DNA of 20,588 nt from a virus. The notes below the pieces were generated by a model. The model was not told the origin of the DNA. It ran no database searches and was given only the letters and a program-made list of their open reading frames with translations. This document shows positions 3,001 to 13,113 of the stretch, one piece after another. The DNA lies in IMG/VR virus record IMGVR_UViG_3300022853_000118, positions 1-20,588 of that record; one strand, written 5' to 3'. A program made the position numbers and the translations under genes. Numbering within the stretch: position 1 is the first letter of the stretch; the number at the start of each line of letters is the position of its first letter.

Positions 3001-5539
3001 TTAAGTTTGTAATAATTGCAAACAATTCTGTAACTATGGTATCAGTACCTGCTTCAGCAACTGTTTCATCGATAGTTTGTGTTACAACTGATTGTAACGG
3101 AGTAACAGTTTCTCCTGCTAAACACGCAAGTGCAACATCTCGAGCTTTATTAATTGCGTCAGTAGTTTCTGCTTCTTGATCAGTAATTACAGTAGAGCCT
3201 GTTTCAAAATATGTTGCTGCTGCTTCAACAGTCTCTGACTCGCCACCATATGTTAGGTCGTGAATCATTGCATCAATTATTAATCCTACATCTCTTTCGC
3301 ATGTTGCCTCGTCGTAAACAAAACTTGCGTATGCTGTGTCAATAAAATTAATTGTACTAGTAATGATATTAGGAAATTCTGCAACAAACGAAGTTCTAAG
3401 AGTAATCTTACTTTCTAATGCACTAACATATGCAGGCGGAGTATTTGTTACTAGAGCAGTAAAGTTTGGAGCAATTGTTAACGGAGCGTAATTTGTGCCG
3501 TATTGAATAACTTCTTCTACTATTGTAATTAATTCTTGTGCGGTAGCAATAAGTGTTTCGGATATTGTAGGATTTTCAATTGTTGCTTGAGGTATTTCTA
3601 CCTGTTGCTTTTGCTCTACCGTAAACACTCGGTTACGCATTATATCATCTATAATAGATCTTATAAATGCAAATGTAACAACGTGTTGTAGTTTTTGTTC
3701 AGGTATCTGACTAGTAATACCTTTCCAGTAACTATTAGCCACTTCAATAGTTGCTGTATTTCCTTCAAAACTTAAATCAAACTGTAGTGCGTCTAAAAGA
3801 AAATCTATGTCTCGTTGACATTTAGTCTGATCGTATGTATAATCTGCGGTAAACGGTGTTAATTCGTTATTAATTTGAAACAATATCCAAGCAAGAACTT
3901 CTGCTTTAATAAATGATTTGTTTACAGAAATTATATTTCTAGCATAGTCTTTTGCATCGTCATAAACTGTGTCCGGAAATACTAAGTCATCAACAGTTTC
4001 TGCACCATATTGTAGTACATCAATAACATCGTTAAACAATGCTGTATTTGCTTGTTGAACACTTGTAATACTATTTAATGCAGTATTTGCTTGTCCTTTG
4101 GCATAATTTAATCCACCGATAGTGGGTGCAAGTTGATCACTTAATACATATGCACTATTTGGTCTAGTGTATGCTAATGCAGATATTCTTCCAAAATAGT
4201 TAGTACCTAGTATACTATCATAACTGCTAGCTCTTAATATAAATTGTAAATCTCTACGACATTTTTCTCTATTATAGTCAAACAAATAGGTATCGTTTAC
4301 ATATGCTATAGTTTCTGCTTGTATAAATGATTTGTTTGCATTAAGTATTTCAACAGCATTTAATCTTGCATCATCCGGGGCTGCTACGCTAAAGGCTTGA
4401 TATCGTACTCCGTCTGCATAAAACGATGTAGGCATATTTGGCTTGCGCCAAAATCCGCTCGCGGTCATGCTAAGGTTGTCAACGGCAATATTATCAATGT
4501 TAAATTCTTGGTTTCCTGTAAAACCGTCAGCAAACATGCCGCCGTGAAATCCTACAACATACGGATCAATATCATAACTTGATTTGGCAAAACTTGCACC
4601 AGTGTGAGGATACGGAGATTTAGTTAGAATTTGGCCTTCTGGGTCAAGTACAAACGCAAAACTTGCATGTTTATCAGTTGTAAAATCATGAAACCAGTTT
4701 GTTGAGTTACAAAGAAATACATCATTATCTTCATTATTATTAGGTAGCGAGTATTCGCTTCTTGGATCTGTTAAATAGTGGTGACCAAAGTATCCTGTTG
4801 TATAATCGTCTGTTTCTCTCCAGAAACGTAATTTAGCCCACGGACTTTCACTAACTCCTTCTTTAGGTCTAACTGTAGTACGGCGTTGGCCAGCTCCAAA
4901 TATACTTGTATTTTCTGGAACTCGAATAGGAAGATGCTCTTCGTAAATACCAGGAGCAATATGCACTAATATCTGTTTAATTTTTATTCGTTGTTCTACG
5001 TTAACAAAGTTTTCATCTTGAGGGTTTGCCTTGATGATATCTTCAGCAGTTCGCATTGCCATGTTAACTGTTCTAAATGCTGTACCCCAGCTTCGGCCGC
5101 GTTGAACGCCGTAACGTCTATCATCATGACCGTCAAGGCTAACAAATAGTTCTGCAACATCGCCGTTGATTACTGTTTTATTAAGGAAAAACCATTCGTT
5201 GCCATCAGCATACTCTACAACTTTATCATTAGTATTGTATCGTAAACTGCCTGCTACTGGATTAGGTCTATCTTTTTTGTCACCACCAGGCAATCTTAGA
5301 CTTTTTGCTTCGCCTGTATCATCAATAATAACAGCAAGATTTCCTCCCGCTAATAAGTTATTATCATTGTCAACTACTAATGTTTCATTAAATACATTCT
5401 TGCCACCGTAAGTTTCTCCGTCGCCAACAAATACTTGTTTGAGTTCAGTGTCATATATAATTTCACCTTTTAGAGGAACAAAGGTTAGTCGTTCTTCTGT
5501 AGTTCCCCTACGTAGAATAATACTGCCAAGATCAGCCAT
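2..5539 (-). CDS. Giant tail-fibre/virion appendage protein, C-terminus cut by window edge
   Basis: An open frame runs from ATG 5539 to the window edge without a stop: 1846 codons visible, C-terminus missing. GGAG lies 8 nt before the ATG, just inside the end of the 75-aa gene. The N-terminus (LGSIILRRGTTEERL, then KGEIIYDTE and FVGDGETYGG, residues 4-47) matches the short beta domain that opens many phage fibres. Residues about 140-250 (RRYGVQRGRSWGTAFRTVN, then APGIYEEHLPIRVPENTSIFGAG) look like the start of a pectate-lyase-type beta-helix. Residues about 400-920 hold four diverged copies of a Cys-x-Arg-Asp module. Residues about 1400-1475 (DGNFRVGDYFRVNQGDGSVSF ... LPTEQAVVNYI) recall T4-like marine phage fibres. 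The rest is strand-rich repeats of the LTVNGN/VTGSLTV kind, as in trimeric fibre shafts. The last visible residues (DSGFDIGTDGAGG) resemble the lead-in to a C-terminal intramolecular chaperone, which would be outside the window. Fibre identity is well supported; receptor and exact virion position are not. Confidence 0.88.
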   Translation of the reverse strand, partial: MADLGSIILRRGTTEERLTFVPLKGEIIYDTELKQVFVGDGETYGGKNVFNETLVVDNDNNLLAGGNLAVIIDDTGEAKSLRLPGGDKKDRPNPVAGSLRYNTNDKVVEYADGNEWFFLNKTVINGDVAELFVSLDGHDDRRYGVQRGRSWGTAFRTVNMAMRTAEDIIKANPQDENFVNVEQRIKIKQILVHIAPGIYEEHLPIRVPENTSIFGAGQRRTTVRPKEGVSESPWAKLRFWRETDDYTTGYFGHHYLTDPRSEYSLPNNNEDNDVFLCNSTNWFHDFTTDKHASFAFVLDPEGQILTKSPYPHTGASFAKSSYDIDPYVVGFHGGMFADGFTGNQEFNIDNIAVDNLSMTASGFWRKPNMPTSFYADGVRYQAFSVAAPDDARLNAVEILNANKSFIQAETIAYVNDTYLFDYNREKCRRDLQFILRASSYDSILGTNYFGRISALAYTRPNSAYVLSDQLAPTIGGLNYAKGQANTALNSITSVQQANTALFNDVIDVLQYGAETVDDLVFPDTVYDDAKDYARNIISVNKSFIKAEVLAWILFQINNELTPFTADYTYDQTKCQRDIDFLLDALQFDLSFEGNTATIEVANSYWKGITSQIPEQKLQHVVTFAFIRSIIDDIMRNRVFTVEQKQQVEIPQATIENPTISETLIATAQELITIVEEVIQYGTNYAPLTIAPNFTALVTNTPPAYVSALESKITLRTSFVAEFPNIITSTINFIDTAYASFVYDEATCERDVGLIIDAMIHDLTYGGESETVEAAATYFETGSTVITDQEAETTDAINKARDVALACLAGETVTPLQSVVTQTIDETVAEAGTDTIVTELFAIITNLITNYVSIKAAHDLILSNIEWIQDEVIAYTNATYPTFDYNQTLCRRDTGYIIAAISNDLFGGKRKSAEAGRSYYRGVSSLGDPSIAIGVQLTETLDANNYAKYLIRQVLSNTAPAQTYQSVTSQTTNSVIVGETYKALADSLYDIILDIMENGEAQGPQSLPKYKINISLETPLLPTLQDRNLIMITAGNKSFVSTDWTMFGNLGYGALARNNARIELVSIFTYYCGYTYKAESGSEIRSLNGSSSNGIYALGAEGRNPFEVPVNATTVNETVFVALADSSIVSDNLTGDLQIVFQDAEGYNGAPAEFFNVMVAQVSHGGVTGDVSYEIGNFNGNKLNIRGSAQGLLADIPDGANITIRLLQEYEIDTDKNITNLLLGAALQYDNDPDQGYRIIQVTPNELVANRFAIRALPTLNHLGVVVNGSGSNVGPGVNQFTINAIGYDAEELEGRRLGYKGTIYQVINYDKLTNIITLDQNLNDELIDQESVRLSPAPGATGKIFTDFSVVKASNHDMLDVGTGSYEDSNYPRELYGPPTRQPVQSNEVTEVAPGRVFFVTNDQDGNFRVGDYFRVNQGDGSVSFSASIALSNLDGLGFTRGVTVNEFSPDSNMSDISDEALPTEQAVVNYINKRIGQNQDGISVGLSRLGAGTLLLDGSQAMEGDLDLDNNNIINLGTLNTTNINAGLTDTDNLTVNTNAVIQSAQISVLTDQRLVIAGVSGVLSDSANLLFDGTTLTVNGNQIVTGSLTVQGVSTFSQMEVENLTVIGEIFGGPLNTDDIRIAGNRLQTTSSNADVELLANGSGHIALKSATDITGNVDVIGTVDISSTLDVNGQTTLASVNIEDLTAARITFAGTAGELVDDENLTFDSGTDTLTLIGTQNVTGQLNVDDIRLDDDTITLKGNRIYGVGSAASGTMYLIPGYTGDNLGTIEVFGNLSVTGTVTTTNVGLENTQINGNLTVFGNTRFGDVITDAVTFTARINSDIIPLTDSGFDIGTDGAGGLA
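2785..4345 (-). repeat. Four-copy Cys-x-Arg-Asp module inside the giant fibre gene
   Basis: Four diverged protein repeats. The cores are CRRD (4250-4261), CQRD (3809-3820), CERD (3290-3301) and CRRD (2864-2875), with the Cys at residues 427, 574, 747 and 889. Spacing is 147, 173 and 142 residues. Each core is preceded by an aromatic/Asp stretch (LFDYNREK, DYTYDQTK, FVYDEAT, TFDYNQTL) and by a helix such as KSFIQAETIAYVN or KSFIKAEVLAWI. Each is followed by a hydrophobic helix and Asp (FILRASSYD, FLLDALQFDL, LIIDAMIHDL, YIIAAISNDL), then in copies 2-4 a Gly-containing turn. The DNA copies are too diverged to be recent duplications. Confidence 0.8.
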
Positions 5540-5771: not shown

Positions 5772-5798
5772 AAATACATTCCTTATATGAATGTATTT
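5772..5798. repeat. 10-bp inverted repeat over the late promoter and ribosome binding site
   Basis: AAATACATTC (5772-5781) and GAATGTATTT (5789-5798) are perfect inverted repeats separated by 7 nt. One arm contains most of the late promoter, and the Shine-Dalgarno AAGGA spans the loop and the start of the other arm. It could be a protein-binding site, or a partial hairpin near the 5' end of the mRNA. Confidence 0.6.
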
Positions 5799-6099: not shown

Positions 6100-6360
6100 T
6101 TATGTTCCTAATGAATGGCCTGTGCCATTGTAGCCTGTTTCTTCAATATAGGTGACTAACTGTTCGTAGCCACCTATTACTCGATCATTTATTTTAATTT
6201 GTGGGAATGTTCTTGCACCTGGAAACTGTTCAAACAATTCTTCACGAGTAAAATCTTTTTCAATCTGATAATAGTTGTATGAGAGATGTCTAATCTCACA
6301 CAGTGCTTTAGCTTTTTCACAAAACGGACAAGCTGGCTTGCCGTAAATTTCTACACTCAT
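6100..6360 (-). CDS. Glutaredoxin
   Basis: This 86-aa protein is a compact thioredoxin-fold glutaredoxin. MSVEIYGKPACPFCEKAKAL gives the first strand and the CPFC redox site at residues 11-14. TFPQIKIND carries the cis-proline, and IGGYEQL the glycine pair that binds glutathione in this family. Glutaredoxins of this kind re-reduce the C-terminal cysteines of ribonucleotide reductase. Its place right after nrdB, with an ATGA stop/start overlap, supports that role; T4 nrdC and cyanophage glutaredoxins are the functional parallels. A short C-terminal tail (NGTGHSLGT) follows the fold. I cannot tell glutathione use from thioredoxin-reductase use by sequence alone. Confidence 0.95.
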   Translation of the reverse strand: MSVEIYGKPACPFCEKAKALCEIRHLSYNYYQIEKDFTREELFEQFPGARTFPQIKINDRVIGGYEQLVTYIEETGYNGTGHSLGT

Positions 6361-7460
6361 AAACTAAATCCCTTCAATGATTCAGTAGTTACGTCTTGCT
6401 TAATACCACCGATGATATAGGACTCGACCTCTGTTTCCTGAGGAGCGACCTGCAAGCCCGAACTACTTAACCAATGCGCAGTCCACGGTAGAGGATTAGT
6501 ATTAACTGGTTGATTAAAGATTGCCTGCAAACCAAGTGCTTTTAATCTACGGTTAGCAATATACTCTACATATTGGTTAAGCAGTGTAACATTCAATCCG
6601 ATCATCGAACCGTCTTTGAACAAGTACTCTGCCCAGTCTTTTTCTTCTAGAACACATTCACGCCATAGGTCATATACTTCTGGCTCGCACTCTTTAGCAA
6701 TAGCTGCCATCTCTGGATCATCTTTACCTTGTGCCCAAAGTTTTAATACATGTGTGCTTAGTGCAAGATGCTGTGCTTCATCACGAGCAATTAAGGAAAT
6801 AATCTTTGCACTGCCTTCCATTAGCTTTAGTTCTCCAAAGCCAAATGTACATGCAAAACTAACGTAGAAACGCAAGCCTTCTAAAATATTAACAGTCATC
6901 ATTGCCATGTACAACTTGCGTTTAACTTCACGCATGCTACCTTCGCCGCGGTGATTGTAAGCGTCGGCTGCTACTGAAAAAGCATCATAATGTTTAGTTA
7001 CACTAGTTGCACGAGCAATAATCTTTTCGTCGTCTAGGATAGTATCAAACACTTCTGACGGGTCAGCATACACGTTCTTCATAATGTGTGTATAACTACG
7101 TGAGTGGATTGTTTCAAAGAAGTCCCAAGTAACAATACACCCTTCTAGTTCAGGAATTGAAACATGCGGCAAAAATGCCAGGCATGGACCACGTCCTTGG
7201 ACACTGTCAAGCAGTGTTTGATATTTAAGATTGGATGTAAAAATATGCTTCTGCTCAGGACGGAAGTTTTGAAAATCTGCACGATCTTTCTGCAAACTAA
7301 CTTCTTCTGGTCGCCAAAAGTAACCTAACATAGTTTGATTTAACTTATCAAACACTGGGTGGCGAAACGTGTCGTAACGCTGGGTATTCATGTCCGACCC
7401 GAAGAACATGTTTTGTTTTGTGAAATCAACTTTTTCTTGGTTAAATACTGTCTTTGCCAT
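6357..7460 (-). CDS. nrdB: Ribonucleotide reductase class Ia, beta (R2) subunit
   Basis: R2 holds the diiron-tyrosyl radical that starts reduction of NDPs to dNDPs in NrdA. I chose ATG 7460 (MAKTVFNQEKVDF, 367 aa) over ATG 7472: it lines up with the E. coli NrdB start, and the AGGA is too close to the first two ATGs. All ligands are present: Asp85 (LLDSVQGR), Glu116 and His119 (ETIHSRSYTHI), Glu194 (ILEGLRF), Glu228 and His231 (RDEAQH). Tyr123 (SRSYTHI) is the radical tyrosine. The C-terminal tail (IGGIKQDVTTESLKGFSL) matches the peptide that docks onto NrdA. Length is normal for the family. It has its own sigma70-like promoter and overlaps the glutaredoxin start by ATGA. Confidence 0.98.
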   Translation of the reverse strand: MAKTVFNQEKVDFTKQNMFFGSDMNTQRYDTFRHPVFDKLNQTMLGYFWRPEEVSLQKDRADFQNFRPEQKHIFTSNLKYQTLLDSVQGRGPCLAFLPHVSIPELEGCIVTWDFFETIHSRSYTHIMKNVYADPSEVFDTILDDEKIIARATSVTKHYDAFSVAADAYNHRGEGSMREVKRKLYMAMMTVNILEGLRFYVSFACTFGFGELKLMEGSAKIISLIARDEAQHLALSTHVLKLWAQGKDDPEMAAIAKECEPEVYDLWRECVLEEKDWAEYLFKDGSMIGLNVTLLNQYVEYIANRRLKALGLQAIFNQPVNTNPLPWTAHWLSSSGLQVAPQETEVESYIIGGIKQDVTTESLKGFSL

Positions 7461-7486
7461 TTTTTTCATCATCCTATCTGTGTATT

Positions 7487-7518
7487 ACACTTAATAACAA
7501 GTATATGCTATTAAGTGT
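7487..7518. repeat. Inverted repeat flanking the nrdB -10 box (operator-like)
   Basis: The arms ACACTTAATA (7487-7496) and TATTAAGTGT (7509-7518) are perfect 10-bp inverted repeats with a 12-nt centre that contains the -10 box. No U-run follows, so it is not a terminator. The position over promoter and transcript start suggests a repressor or activator site. Confidence 0.65.
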
Positions 7519-7528
7519 TAGTTGTCAA
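7500..7528 (-). promoter_or_regulatory. sigma70-type early promoter of nrdB
   Basis: TTGACA (7523-7528), a 17-nt spacer, then TATACT (7500-7505): a perfect -35 and 5 of 6 in the -10. The transcript would start near 7493 and give a leader of about 33 nt before nrdB. Host RNA polymerase could use it without phage factors. Confidence 0.72.
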
Positions 7529-7547
7529 TCTTTAAACTGCACAAGCG

Positions 7548-9880: not shown

Positions 9881-9888
9881 TATTTATT
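9881..9888 (-). promoter_or_regulatory. Late-type promoter (AATAAATA) upstream of nrdA
   Basis: AATAAATA followed by TCAAT lies about 30 nt before the nrdA ATG and overlaps the stop of the 141-aa gene. It fits the TAAATA core of the other late promoters here. I found no sigma70 pair at a good spacing in this gap. A late promoter is unexpected for a nucleotide-metabolism gene. Confidence 0.45.
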
Positions 9889-10309
9889 GCCTGTGCGGCA
9901 TGCTGTAAATTTTCTGGTCTACCATCGTCGACGGTAATGCATCTACGGAAGTATATGTATCATTATAATATCCTATTGCGCATTTGTCTACCATTAATAT
10001 ATAATAATTAGTAGATTTATTGTAGTCTGTAATGATATGTATCTCAAAATTAGACCTATTAAAACGATCGGTTAACTGTAAGGAATAACACATTCCTAAT
10101 ACGCGAGAGAACTCGCAGTACTGGTTCTCTTGTATAAGTTGCCAAGGGTCTGGCCAGCTCTTTTGATCCCATGCATCAGTATGAATACTAACTGTTGGTG
10201 CGGTATTGTAGCAGTCGATAACATCTTGAATAGGGTCCTTCGACCGCTCAAGACTGTACCTGAAGGCAACCCAGGCTACTAGCCTTTGTTCATAGGTTTT
10301 GTCAAACAT
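9884..10309 (-). CDS. Conserved phage protein of unknown function, next to the beta-helix fibre
   Basis: This 141-aa soluble protein has no signal peptide or TM segment. It is rich in Trp, Tyr and Asp. The centre has DPWQLIQENQYCEFSRVLGM followed by CYSLQLTDRFNRSNFEIHII, a mixed helix/strand region with three Cys. From memory, this central pattern occurs in marine T4-like phages, but I know no function. Its ATG shares one base with the fibre stop (TAATG), so translation is coupled to the fibre. That suggests a virion-assembly role, for example as a fibre partner or chaperone; this is inference. Confidence 0.85.
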   Translation of the reverse strand: MFDKTYEQRLVAWVAFRYSLERSKDPIQDVIDCYNTAPTVSIHTDAWDQKSWPDPWQLIQENQYCEFSRVLGMCYSLQLTDRFNRSNFEIHIITDYNKSTNYYILMVDKCAIGYYNDTYTSVDALPSTMVDQKIYSMPHRQ

Positions 10310-12012: not shown

Positions 12013-12717
12013 TTAACTGTTCTGTTCGTAGTATGTATATACTCTATTGTACCATTCATTACGCCACTCGGCATACTCATGTGGCCATACATCAAACTGC
12101 TGATATGTCTCTCCACCGAGATCTGAGCCATGGTCACCTCGGCTACACATAAAGATATGTCCTTCGCGAATATTAGTTCCAAACATTTCGTTGTGTGCTT
12201 CGGCATAGGCTACTAGTTGCAAGAAGTAGTTCTGTACATACTCTAACTTCTTAGGCTTATTTGTTTGCTTGAAGTCAAGAATGCAAGGTTGGCCTTTATA
12301 CTGTCCAACTAAGTCAGTAGTACCGGCATACATCTGCGGAACATAAAGAGCAACTTCGCTGCCCCAAATCTCATCAACATCTACCATTGCGTTGTCACGC
12401 ACCTGAACTGCCATTGCGTGTGCTTTGATTGCAAACGGGTTACTACCAGGAGTAGGCCATTCGCCGGTATCTACATAGTCTTCAAGATATTTGTGCATAC
12501 GTGTACCAACACCGGCAGCTTCTGTTGTAATTTCTTGTGCTTTTACATCACCTACACGTCTGCGCCAAGCGATGAGTCCGGTCTTGTCACTAGTTGCATC
12601 AAGGATAGTTGTAACACTAGCAACAGCGTCGCCGTCAGGTGTCATGTATTTGCGTTTGCCGTCTACTTCTTTGCGTGATATTGGTTGATAATCGTATTTT
12701 TTAGTTATCAGACTCAT
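12013..12717 (-). CDS. PD-(D/E)XK exonuclease, MGME1/RecB-like
   Basis: This 234-aa nuclease has the motif series of the RecB-like PD-(D/E)XK family: GTRMHKYLE (residues 71-79, with His75), SEVALYVPQMYAGTTDLVG (Asp135), CILDFKQTNKPKK (Asp148-x-Lys150, the metal and catalytic pair) and YFLQLVAYAEAHN (Gln167). The N-terminal YDYQPISRKEVDGKRKY and SVTTILDATSDKTGL are typical of the T4-like marine phage exonuclease group. It probably degrades or trims DNA ends, either host DNA for nucleotide salvage or phage recombination ends. Its start overlaps nfu by 17 nt, so both are made from the nfu sigma70 promoter, which fits an early gene. Confidence 0.87.
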   Translation of the reverse strand: MSLITKKYDYQPISRKEVDGKRKYMTPDGDAVASVTTILDATSDKTGLIAWRRRVGDVKAQEITTEAAGVGTRMHKYLEDYVDTGEWPTPGSNPFAIKAHAMAVQVRDNAMVDVDEIWGSEVALYVPQMYAGTTDLVGQYKGQPCILDFKQTNKPKKLEYVQNYFLQLVAYAEAHNEMFGTNIREGHIFMCSRGDHGSDLGGETYQQFDVWPHEYAEWRNEWYNRVYTYYEQNS

Positions 12718-13060
12718 CTCGAACCTCCCGGATTGGGATCATATTTTCTATTTCCCATGCCTCTTGCCCGAAAGGATCGTTGTTCATATAATAAGGATTT
12801 ACATCACTATATCCGTTATCGGCATCTACACTTTGTACTTCGGGTACAAATTGTTTAATCATACTTTCAACACCGTGTTTTAGTGTTGCTGTTGATCCTG
12901 CACATCCGCTGCATGCGCCTTGTAGTTCTAACTGCAAATGTCCATCTAGATATGATGTAAACTCAATGTTGCCTCCGTGCTCTGCAACACTAGGTTTTAC
13001 ATGTGATTCGATTAGTTCTTTAATTTGTGTGATGATTTCTTCATCAGTTCTTTGTGTCAT
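12701..13060 (-). CDS. NifU C-terminal (Nfu)-like iron-sulfur carrier
   Basis: This 119-aa protein holds one Nfu domain in residues 5-75: ITQIKELIESHVKPSVAEHG, then LQLELQGACSGCAGSTATLK with Cys50-Ser-Gly-Cys53, the pair that bridges a 4Fe-4S cluster between two monomers. Nfu proteins deliver clusters to target enzymes. A C-terminal acidic tail of about 45 residues (VNPYYMNNDPFGQEAW ... EVRDESDN) is extra to the usual small Nfu proteins. GGAG lies 8 nt before the ATG. It is first in an early-type unit with the exonuclease. Which Fe-S protein it serves, phage or host, is not shown; some RecB-family nucleases carry clusters, but the adjacent exonuclease shows no cysteine cluster. Confidence 0.93.
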   Translation of the reverse strand: MTQRTDEEIITQIKELIESHVKPSVAEHGGNIEFTSYLDGHLQLELQGACSGCAGSTATLKHGVESMIKQFVPEVQSVDADNGYSDVNPYYMNNDPFGQEAWEIENMIPIREVRDESDN

Positions 13061-13084
13061 AGATATACTCCATATGTTATACGT

Positions 13085-13113
13085 AGTGTAGCATACAAAT
13101 ATTACAATGTCAA
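13085..13113 (-). promoter_or_regulatory. sigma70-type early promoter (extended -10) for nfu-exonuclease
   Basis: TTGACA (13108-13113), 17 nt, then TACACT (13085-13090) preceded by TGC, an extended -10. The whole promoter lies in the only gap before nfu. The transcript would start near 13078 with a leader of about 18 nt containing GGAG. Confidence 0.7.

Follow-up and report, generated by a model that had tools for sequence, protein, structure and literature searches.

Organization of the nrdA-nrdB locus

The window, by which we mean the whole 20,588-nucleotide stretch of viral DNA that was analysed, encodes both subunits of a ribonucleotide reductase on its minus strand. Ribonucleotide reductase subunits are usually produced together; in this phage nrdA and nrdB are separated by a short gap that holds a promoter-like sequence overlaid by an inverted repeat. 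The relevant features are as follows.

6100-6360, minus strand: glutaredoxin gene, 3' of nrdB (Pfam PF00462, E 2.1e-12)
6357-7472, minus strand: nrdB, class Ia ribonucleotide reductase beta subunit, 371 aa (Pfam PF00268, E 2.6e-51; phrog_86, E 5.5e-151)
7473-7547, minus strand: nrdA-nrdB intergenic gap, 75 nt
7487-7496: inverted repeat, downstream arm, reading TATTAAGTGT on the minus strand and covering the likely transcription start
7500-7505, minus strand: -10 hexamer TATACT of the nrdB promoter, after a 17-nt spacer
7509-7518: inverted repeat, upstream arm, reading ACACTTAATA on the minus strand and lying in the -35/-10 spacer
7523-7528, minus strand: TTGACA, -35 hexamer of the nrdB promoter, some 20 nt past the nrdA stop codon
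7548-9851, minus strand: nrdA, alpha subunit, 767 aa (Pfam PF02867, E 2.9e-130)
9881-9887, minus strand: late-promoter motif ATAAATA (T4/cyanophage type, within CAATAAATA), upstream of nrdA
9962-9990, minus strand: possible sigma70-type promoter TAGACA-17-TATAAT, upstream of the late motif and inside the ORF that precedes nrdA

The glutaredoxin start codon overlaps the end of nrdB, so these two genes are probably co-transcribed. Translation of nrdB may instead begin at a later ATG, that of MAKTVFN.

A first-pass annotation of positions 7487-7528 had proposed that nrdB possesses a sigma70-type promoter of its own, with a perfect 10-bp inverted repeat around the -10 box and over the likely start. 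Both elements were recovered inside that interval: TTGACA-N17-TATACT runs from 7528 to 7500, and the repeat ACACTTAATA-N12-TATTAAGTGT occupies 7487-7518 with exact arms flanking the -10 hexamer. Transcription would be expected to start near 7492-7494. The promoter matches the consensus at 11 of 12 positions, which makes it joint best among the 19 promoter-like sites between positions 4000 and 11000. However, shuffled sequence yields 22.7 such sites. With promoter-like sites at chance number in this region, the hexamers alone prove little, and conservation becomes the real test of the promoter.

Conservation of the nrdB promoter

Selecting relatives by NrdB protein similarity alone gave 80 distinct complete nrdA-nrdB gaps. 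Every one of them contains a sigma70-type promoter matching 9-12 of the 12 consensus positions, and the score is at least 11/12 in 49 of the 80, compared with 0.3% of shuffles. The spacer measures 17 nt in 71 gaps and the -35 hexamer is TTGACA in 66, with TTGAC[ATGC] at the equivalent position in all 80. The promoter mostly starts a few to ~20 nt past the nrdA stop codon, and further away in a minority. Loci that had been selected by pattern were left out of this universality claim because TTGAC formed part of the selection pattern; they were kept in the dyad counts given below. With hexamers 16-18 nt apart and conservation across relatives, the element has the properties of a sigma70-type promoter, and because it is kept in the complete NrdB-selected set we conclude from comparative evidence that it is real in an evolutionary sense. 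No intergenic promoter gap lies between nrdA and nrdB in the pelagiphages HTVC008M and Mosig or in the cyanophages P-SSM4 and S-CREM1, which suggests that the arrangement is particular to this large, uncultured marine group of phages.

nrdA follows a late-promoter motif

In T4-like cyanophages NATAAATA is a late promoter (PMC2984593). The core TAAATA was found at most 75 nt upstream of nrdA in 40 of 42 relatives versus 13% of shuffles, which places nrdA with the T4-type late genes. The same core occurs in only 6 of 112 nrdB gaps (shuffles, 13%), so nrdB falls outside that class. In the window ATAAATA also precedes several other same-strand genes. Given the universal sigma70-type promoter at nrdB, the late motif at nrdA and its rarity at nrdB, separate control of the two genes as a lineage-wide trait is strongly supported on comparative grounds, as the first-pass annotation had supposed for this phage. 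A second sigma70-like site lies ~137 nt upstream of nrdA, and scores at least 11/12 in 5 of 42 relatives versus 0.7% of shuffles. Because the window and a few relatives carry this site, nrdA might be transcribed early as well.

One further gene of the window stands out amid the late-motif genes, a NifU-like gene (12701-13060, minus strand) immediately preceded by a sigma70-like promoter, TTGACA-N17-TACACT (13060-13110).

Dyads over the nrdB promoter

Arms of at least 10 bp arose in 59 of 20,000 dinucleotide shuffles of the 75-nt gap (p ~0.003), and the window repeat was slightly less probable when the hexamers were held fixed (p = 0.002). The 20.6-kb window contains only one other perfect repeat with arms of at least 10 bp and a spacer of at most 14. 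Conservation of the arms in related phages had been named beforehand as a test of this palindrome. The particular sequence does not extend that far, being present at the equivalent position in four near-identical IMG/VR contigs only, but dyads of other sequence recur at the nrdB promoter of relatives. One near-identical relative keeps promoter and palindrome whole while its NrdA C-terminus differs. We do not take this as a sign of selection, since its NrdB is nearly identical too and a recombination joint explains the pattern equally well.

The dyads of relatives include TACGCATATTAA-N9-TTAATATGCGTA (L008), CATACTAGCA-N6-TGCTAGTATG (L042), ATACAGCCC-N4-GGGCTGTAT (L031 and others), GTTTATAGT-N2-ACTATAAAC (L025), TAGCACCTAGGTGCTA (L071) and ACACTATCAC-N1-GTGATAGTGT (L337), among more. 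Several are long and perfect, with arms of 12 bp in L008, 10 in L015, and 9 in both L031 and L025, and a 16-bp perfect palindrome in L071. For statistics the nrdB promoters were grouped into 109 clusters (at most 75% identity). Dyads were significant at p<=0.05 in 24 of these (p<=0.01 in 11) and in 14 of the 35 clusters among the closest relatives, whereas among 90 sigma70-type promoters elsewhere in these phages 5, a chance-level number, reached p<=0.05 (Fisher p = 0.0007 and 8e-6, respectively). The counts were unchanged when the hexamers were kept fixed. Among more distant relatives only 10 of 74 clusters had a significant dyad. Dyad centres lie mainly ~15-16.5 nt (spacer) or 25-30 nt (-10/start) from the start of the -35 hexamer, which are typical repressor positions. 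A two-fold symmetric site is thus present over the promoter beyond chance, both in the window (p 0.002) and as an excess across relatives, as is characteristic of dimeric operators.

Within clades the arms are fixed. In the clade sharing ATACAGCC both arms are identical in 12 of 12 variants while 4-6 central bases vary, and in 7 of the 12 the start is covered by a further dyad, TGTATA-N5..7-TATACA, that overlaps the first. Three half-sites, ATACAG/CTGTAT/ATACAG, then lie ~14-15 bp apart from the -35 to the start and make up the two dyads, as at the nrdB promoter of L046, L053, L286, L293 and other loci of this clade. A similar pattern of invariant arms around a variable loop is seen in the ACGCT-N5-AGCGT and TACTATA/TATAGTA clades.

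Operator, RNA hairpin or chance

The dyads most likely serve as operators, each lineage having its own dimeric, sequence-specific regulator encoded by host or phage. The main competitor is that the dyad acts as an RNA hairpin in a read-through nrdA-nrdB transcript, serving in cleavage, in protection of the nrdA 3' end or as the site of a translational repressor. Such a hairpin would be missing from nrdB mRNA made from its own promoter, because the start falls inside the downstream arm. Read as RNA, the window repeat would grow to a stem of 13 pairs (three gained, one G-U) whose 6-nt loop is made up of the -10 hexamer, UAUACU (z = -2.6), and T4 gene e provides a precedent for a promoter within a hairpin arm (PMC3014915). 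In imperfect stems of relatives G-U pairs outnumber A-C mismatches, although 6 versus 4 are too few to count. Folding is not biased towards the transcribed strand (sense z -1.47 versus antisense -1.60, p = 0.6), no terminator-like U-run follows the dyad, and the Shine-Dalgarno sequence (SD) becomes less accessible when the upstream part is shuffled. That the arm sequence does not change within a clade speaks for recognition of sequence over structure alone. Lacking strand bias and SD involvement, and with its arms fixed within clades, the dyad is better explained as a DNA operator, and we regard the hairpin as unlikely, though worth keeping in view. Two specific forms of it were rejected. Sequestration of the SD in the manner of T4 gene e was found at 0 of 97 nrdB promoters versus 10 of 58 other promoters, with a mean SD unpaired probability of 0.82 in the nrdB read-through RNA, and positions 7487-7518 contain no site resembling an intrinsic terminator.

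It could also be that the promoter alone matters and that A+T-rich promoter sequence throws up palindromes by chance or as a neutral by-product. Their absence from most of the distant relatives, the lack of a conserved motif sequence and the partial symmetry of -10 hexamers in themselves are what this would predict. Yet the dyad excess holds with hexamers fixed and is not seen at the 90 comparison promoters from these phages, and long perfect dyads of differing sequence occur in five separate loci (L008, L015, L031, L025 and L071); we consider by-products of this kind improbable. Control by NrdR, the host's own ribonucleotide reductase repressor, would be attractive in that NrdR targets this gene in bacteria and the outer ACAC...GTGT resembles the ends of an NrdR box. 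NrdR requires a pair of 16-bp boxes at a distance of 15-16 (or about 25-26) bp (PMC12051234). The window instead has a single 32-bp dyad with a 12-bp centre, and no gap among 159 reached 12 of 14 matches to the 16-bp ACACWATATATWGTGT-like box (mean 8.48 versus 8.59 in shuffles). The best window match is 9/14, in agreement with the initial remark that the palindrome does not look like an NrdR box. An NrdR operator was accordingly discarded on sequence and for its missing paired-box geometry, and we give this idea almost no credence.

A model for separate control of the two subunits

The account that we favour, with slightly better than even confidence, combines an early promoter of nrdB's own with a lineage-specific operator and late expression of nrdA. 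Its basis is the promoter, the late motif, the dyad excess and the fixed arms, all of them read from sequence; from these we infer the early timing of nrdB, the repression and the dimeric protein. nrdB and the glutaredoxin gene behind it would be transcribed from a host-sigma70 promoter, so that the beta subunit is made early, while nrdA would be one of a run of late genes and follow a T4-type late motif; late read-through could also reach nrdB. In the window phage and many relatives the putative two-fold symmetric operator would overlay the spacer or the -10/start region, and a dimeric DNA-binding protein bound there would keep RNA polymerase off. The operator sequence would be lineage-specific and turn over while the promoter stays, in which case the regulator must differ between lineages too; it might be a host repressor adopted per lineage or a fast-changing phage protein.

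The dimeric regulator suggested by the first-pass annotation is plausible and gains from the promoter-specific dyad excess and from clade-fixed arms with free loops, but there is no second site in the genome, and no candidate regulator gene was found. The window palindrome occurs at no other promoter of the window and is single-copy in the window and in the loci and contigs searched, and the ATACAGCC site is likewise single-copy in searched contigs of up to 134 kb. With one occurrence per contig searched, including the 134-kb relative, no regulon is visible, and a single-target operator is possible. More tentatively still, and in our view rather less probably than the favoured account as a whole, lineages of this lytic, T4-like phage group may have swapped the operator of a private early beta promoter to match different host or phage repressors, so that host state would gate beta and alpha would follow the late programme.

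Lineage-wide pairing of a sigma70 promoter for beta with a late motif for alpha implies that the phage sets the supply of the radical-bearing subunit independently. If the dyads are indeed operators whose sequence changes under a constant promoter, they would form a readable record of the regulators controlling phage metabolism in uncultured marine hosts, and offer a way to search for those regulators.

Relation to known systems

As in the NrdR box pairs of bacterial nrd operons, a palindromic operator, here a candidate, overlaps the promoter of a ribonucleotide reductase gene; unlike NrdR systems (PMC12051234), the nrdB gaps have neither the box sequence nor the paired-box geometry. T4 gene e likewise has a promoter within an inverted repeat, so that transcripts from its own start fold differently from read-through ones (PMC3014915), but there the structure hides the ribosome-binding site and the promoter is late, whereas at nrdB the SD lies outside and accessible and the promoter is of the sigma70 type. 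The 'middle' genes of RB49 and cyanophage S-PM2 have overlapping early and late promoters (PMC2984593). Sigma70 and ATAAATA types also share one T4-like genome here, but each type serves a different subunit of one enzyme, and the nrdA-nrdB gap holds the sigma70 promoter.

The window differs from CtrA-type promoters in having one site at one metabolic gene instead of a cluster, and in an operator sequence that varies by lineage. Nor is the dyad a CtrA site, since CtrA sites have a spacing of N7, whereas the TTAA spacing here is N16. The likeness is that this host regulator acts on promoters of Alphaproteobacteria phages (PMC9437464), and here too a phage promoter bears sites for a sequence-specific regulator, in this case a putative one.

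Host hints and other elements

The 134-kb relative (IMGVR_UViG_3300027859_000890) carries at ~30.2-30.6 kb (L343:10189-10552) a permuted alphaproteobacterial-type tmRNA (Rfam RF01849, 125 bits, E 1.4e-33; tag ANDNRAPAMALAA), which suggests an alphaproteobacterial host. Searching the window, the loci and contigs of up to 134 kb for the palindrome disclosed no shared regulon. In host genomes the exact 10-bp arms at 12-bp spacing were found in two sister species of Zongyanglinia (L349:7304-7335 and L350:3130-3161), which we take to be marine Alphaproteobacteria. The two matches are one orthologous site within a longer hairpin with 14-bp arms; no nrd gene was seen there, and by our own ORF reading the downstream gene appears regulator-like. 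By our arithmetic ~0.2 chance matches are expected in 257 Gb. As a single orthologous site with no nrd gene beside it, the match was set aside as a shared operator and is probably due to chance.

A second perfect 10-bp inverted repeat, AAATACATTC-N7-GAATGTATTT, lies at 5772-5798 of the window (minus strand, z -3.0) and links a late motif ATAAATA to the SD and start of a 78-aa gene. Transcripts from the late promoter would miss part of its upstream arm. Repeats of this kind are not general among late-motif genes (2 of 138).

At other sigma70-type promoters of these phages, the -35/-10 spacer shows 7-16 bp of complementarity to the SD of the driven gene (p<=0.05 in 10 of 58, p<=0.01 in 6 of 58). 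Examples are L014:10371, L016:9895, L091:4547, L212:7955, L111:8582 and position 43647 of the 134-kb contig. Read-through RNA would hide the SD at these genes and RNA from their own promoters would not, which would follow the logic of T4 gene e with an early-type promoter.
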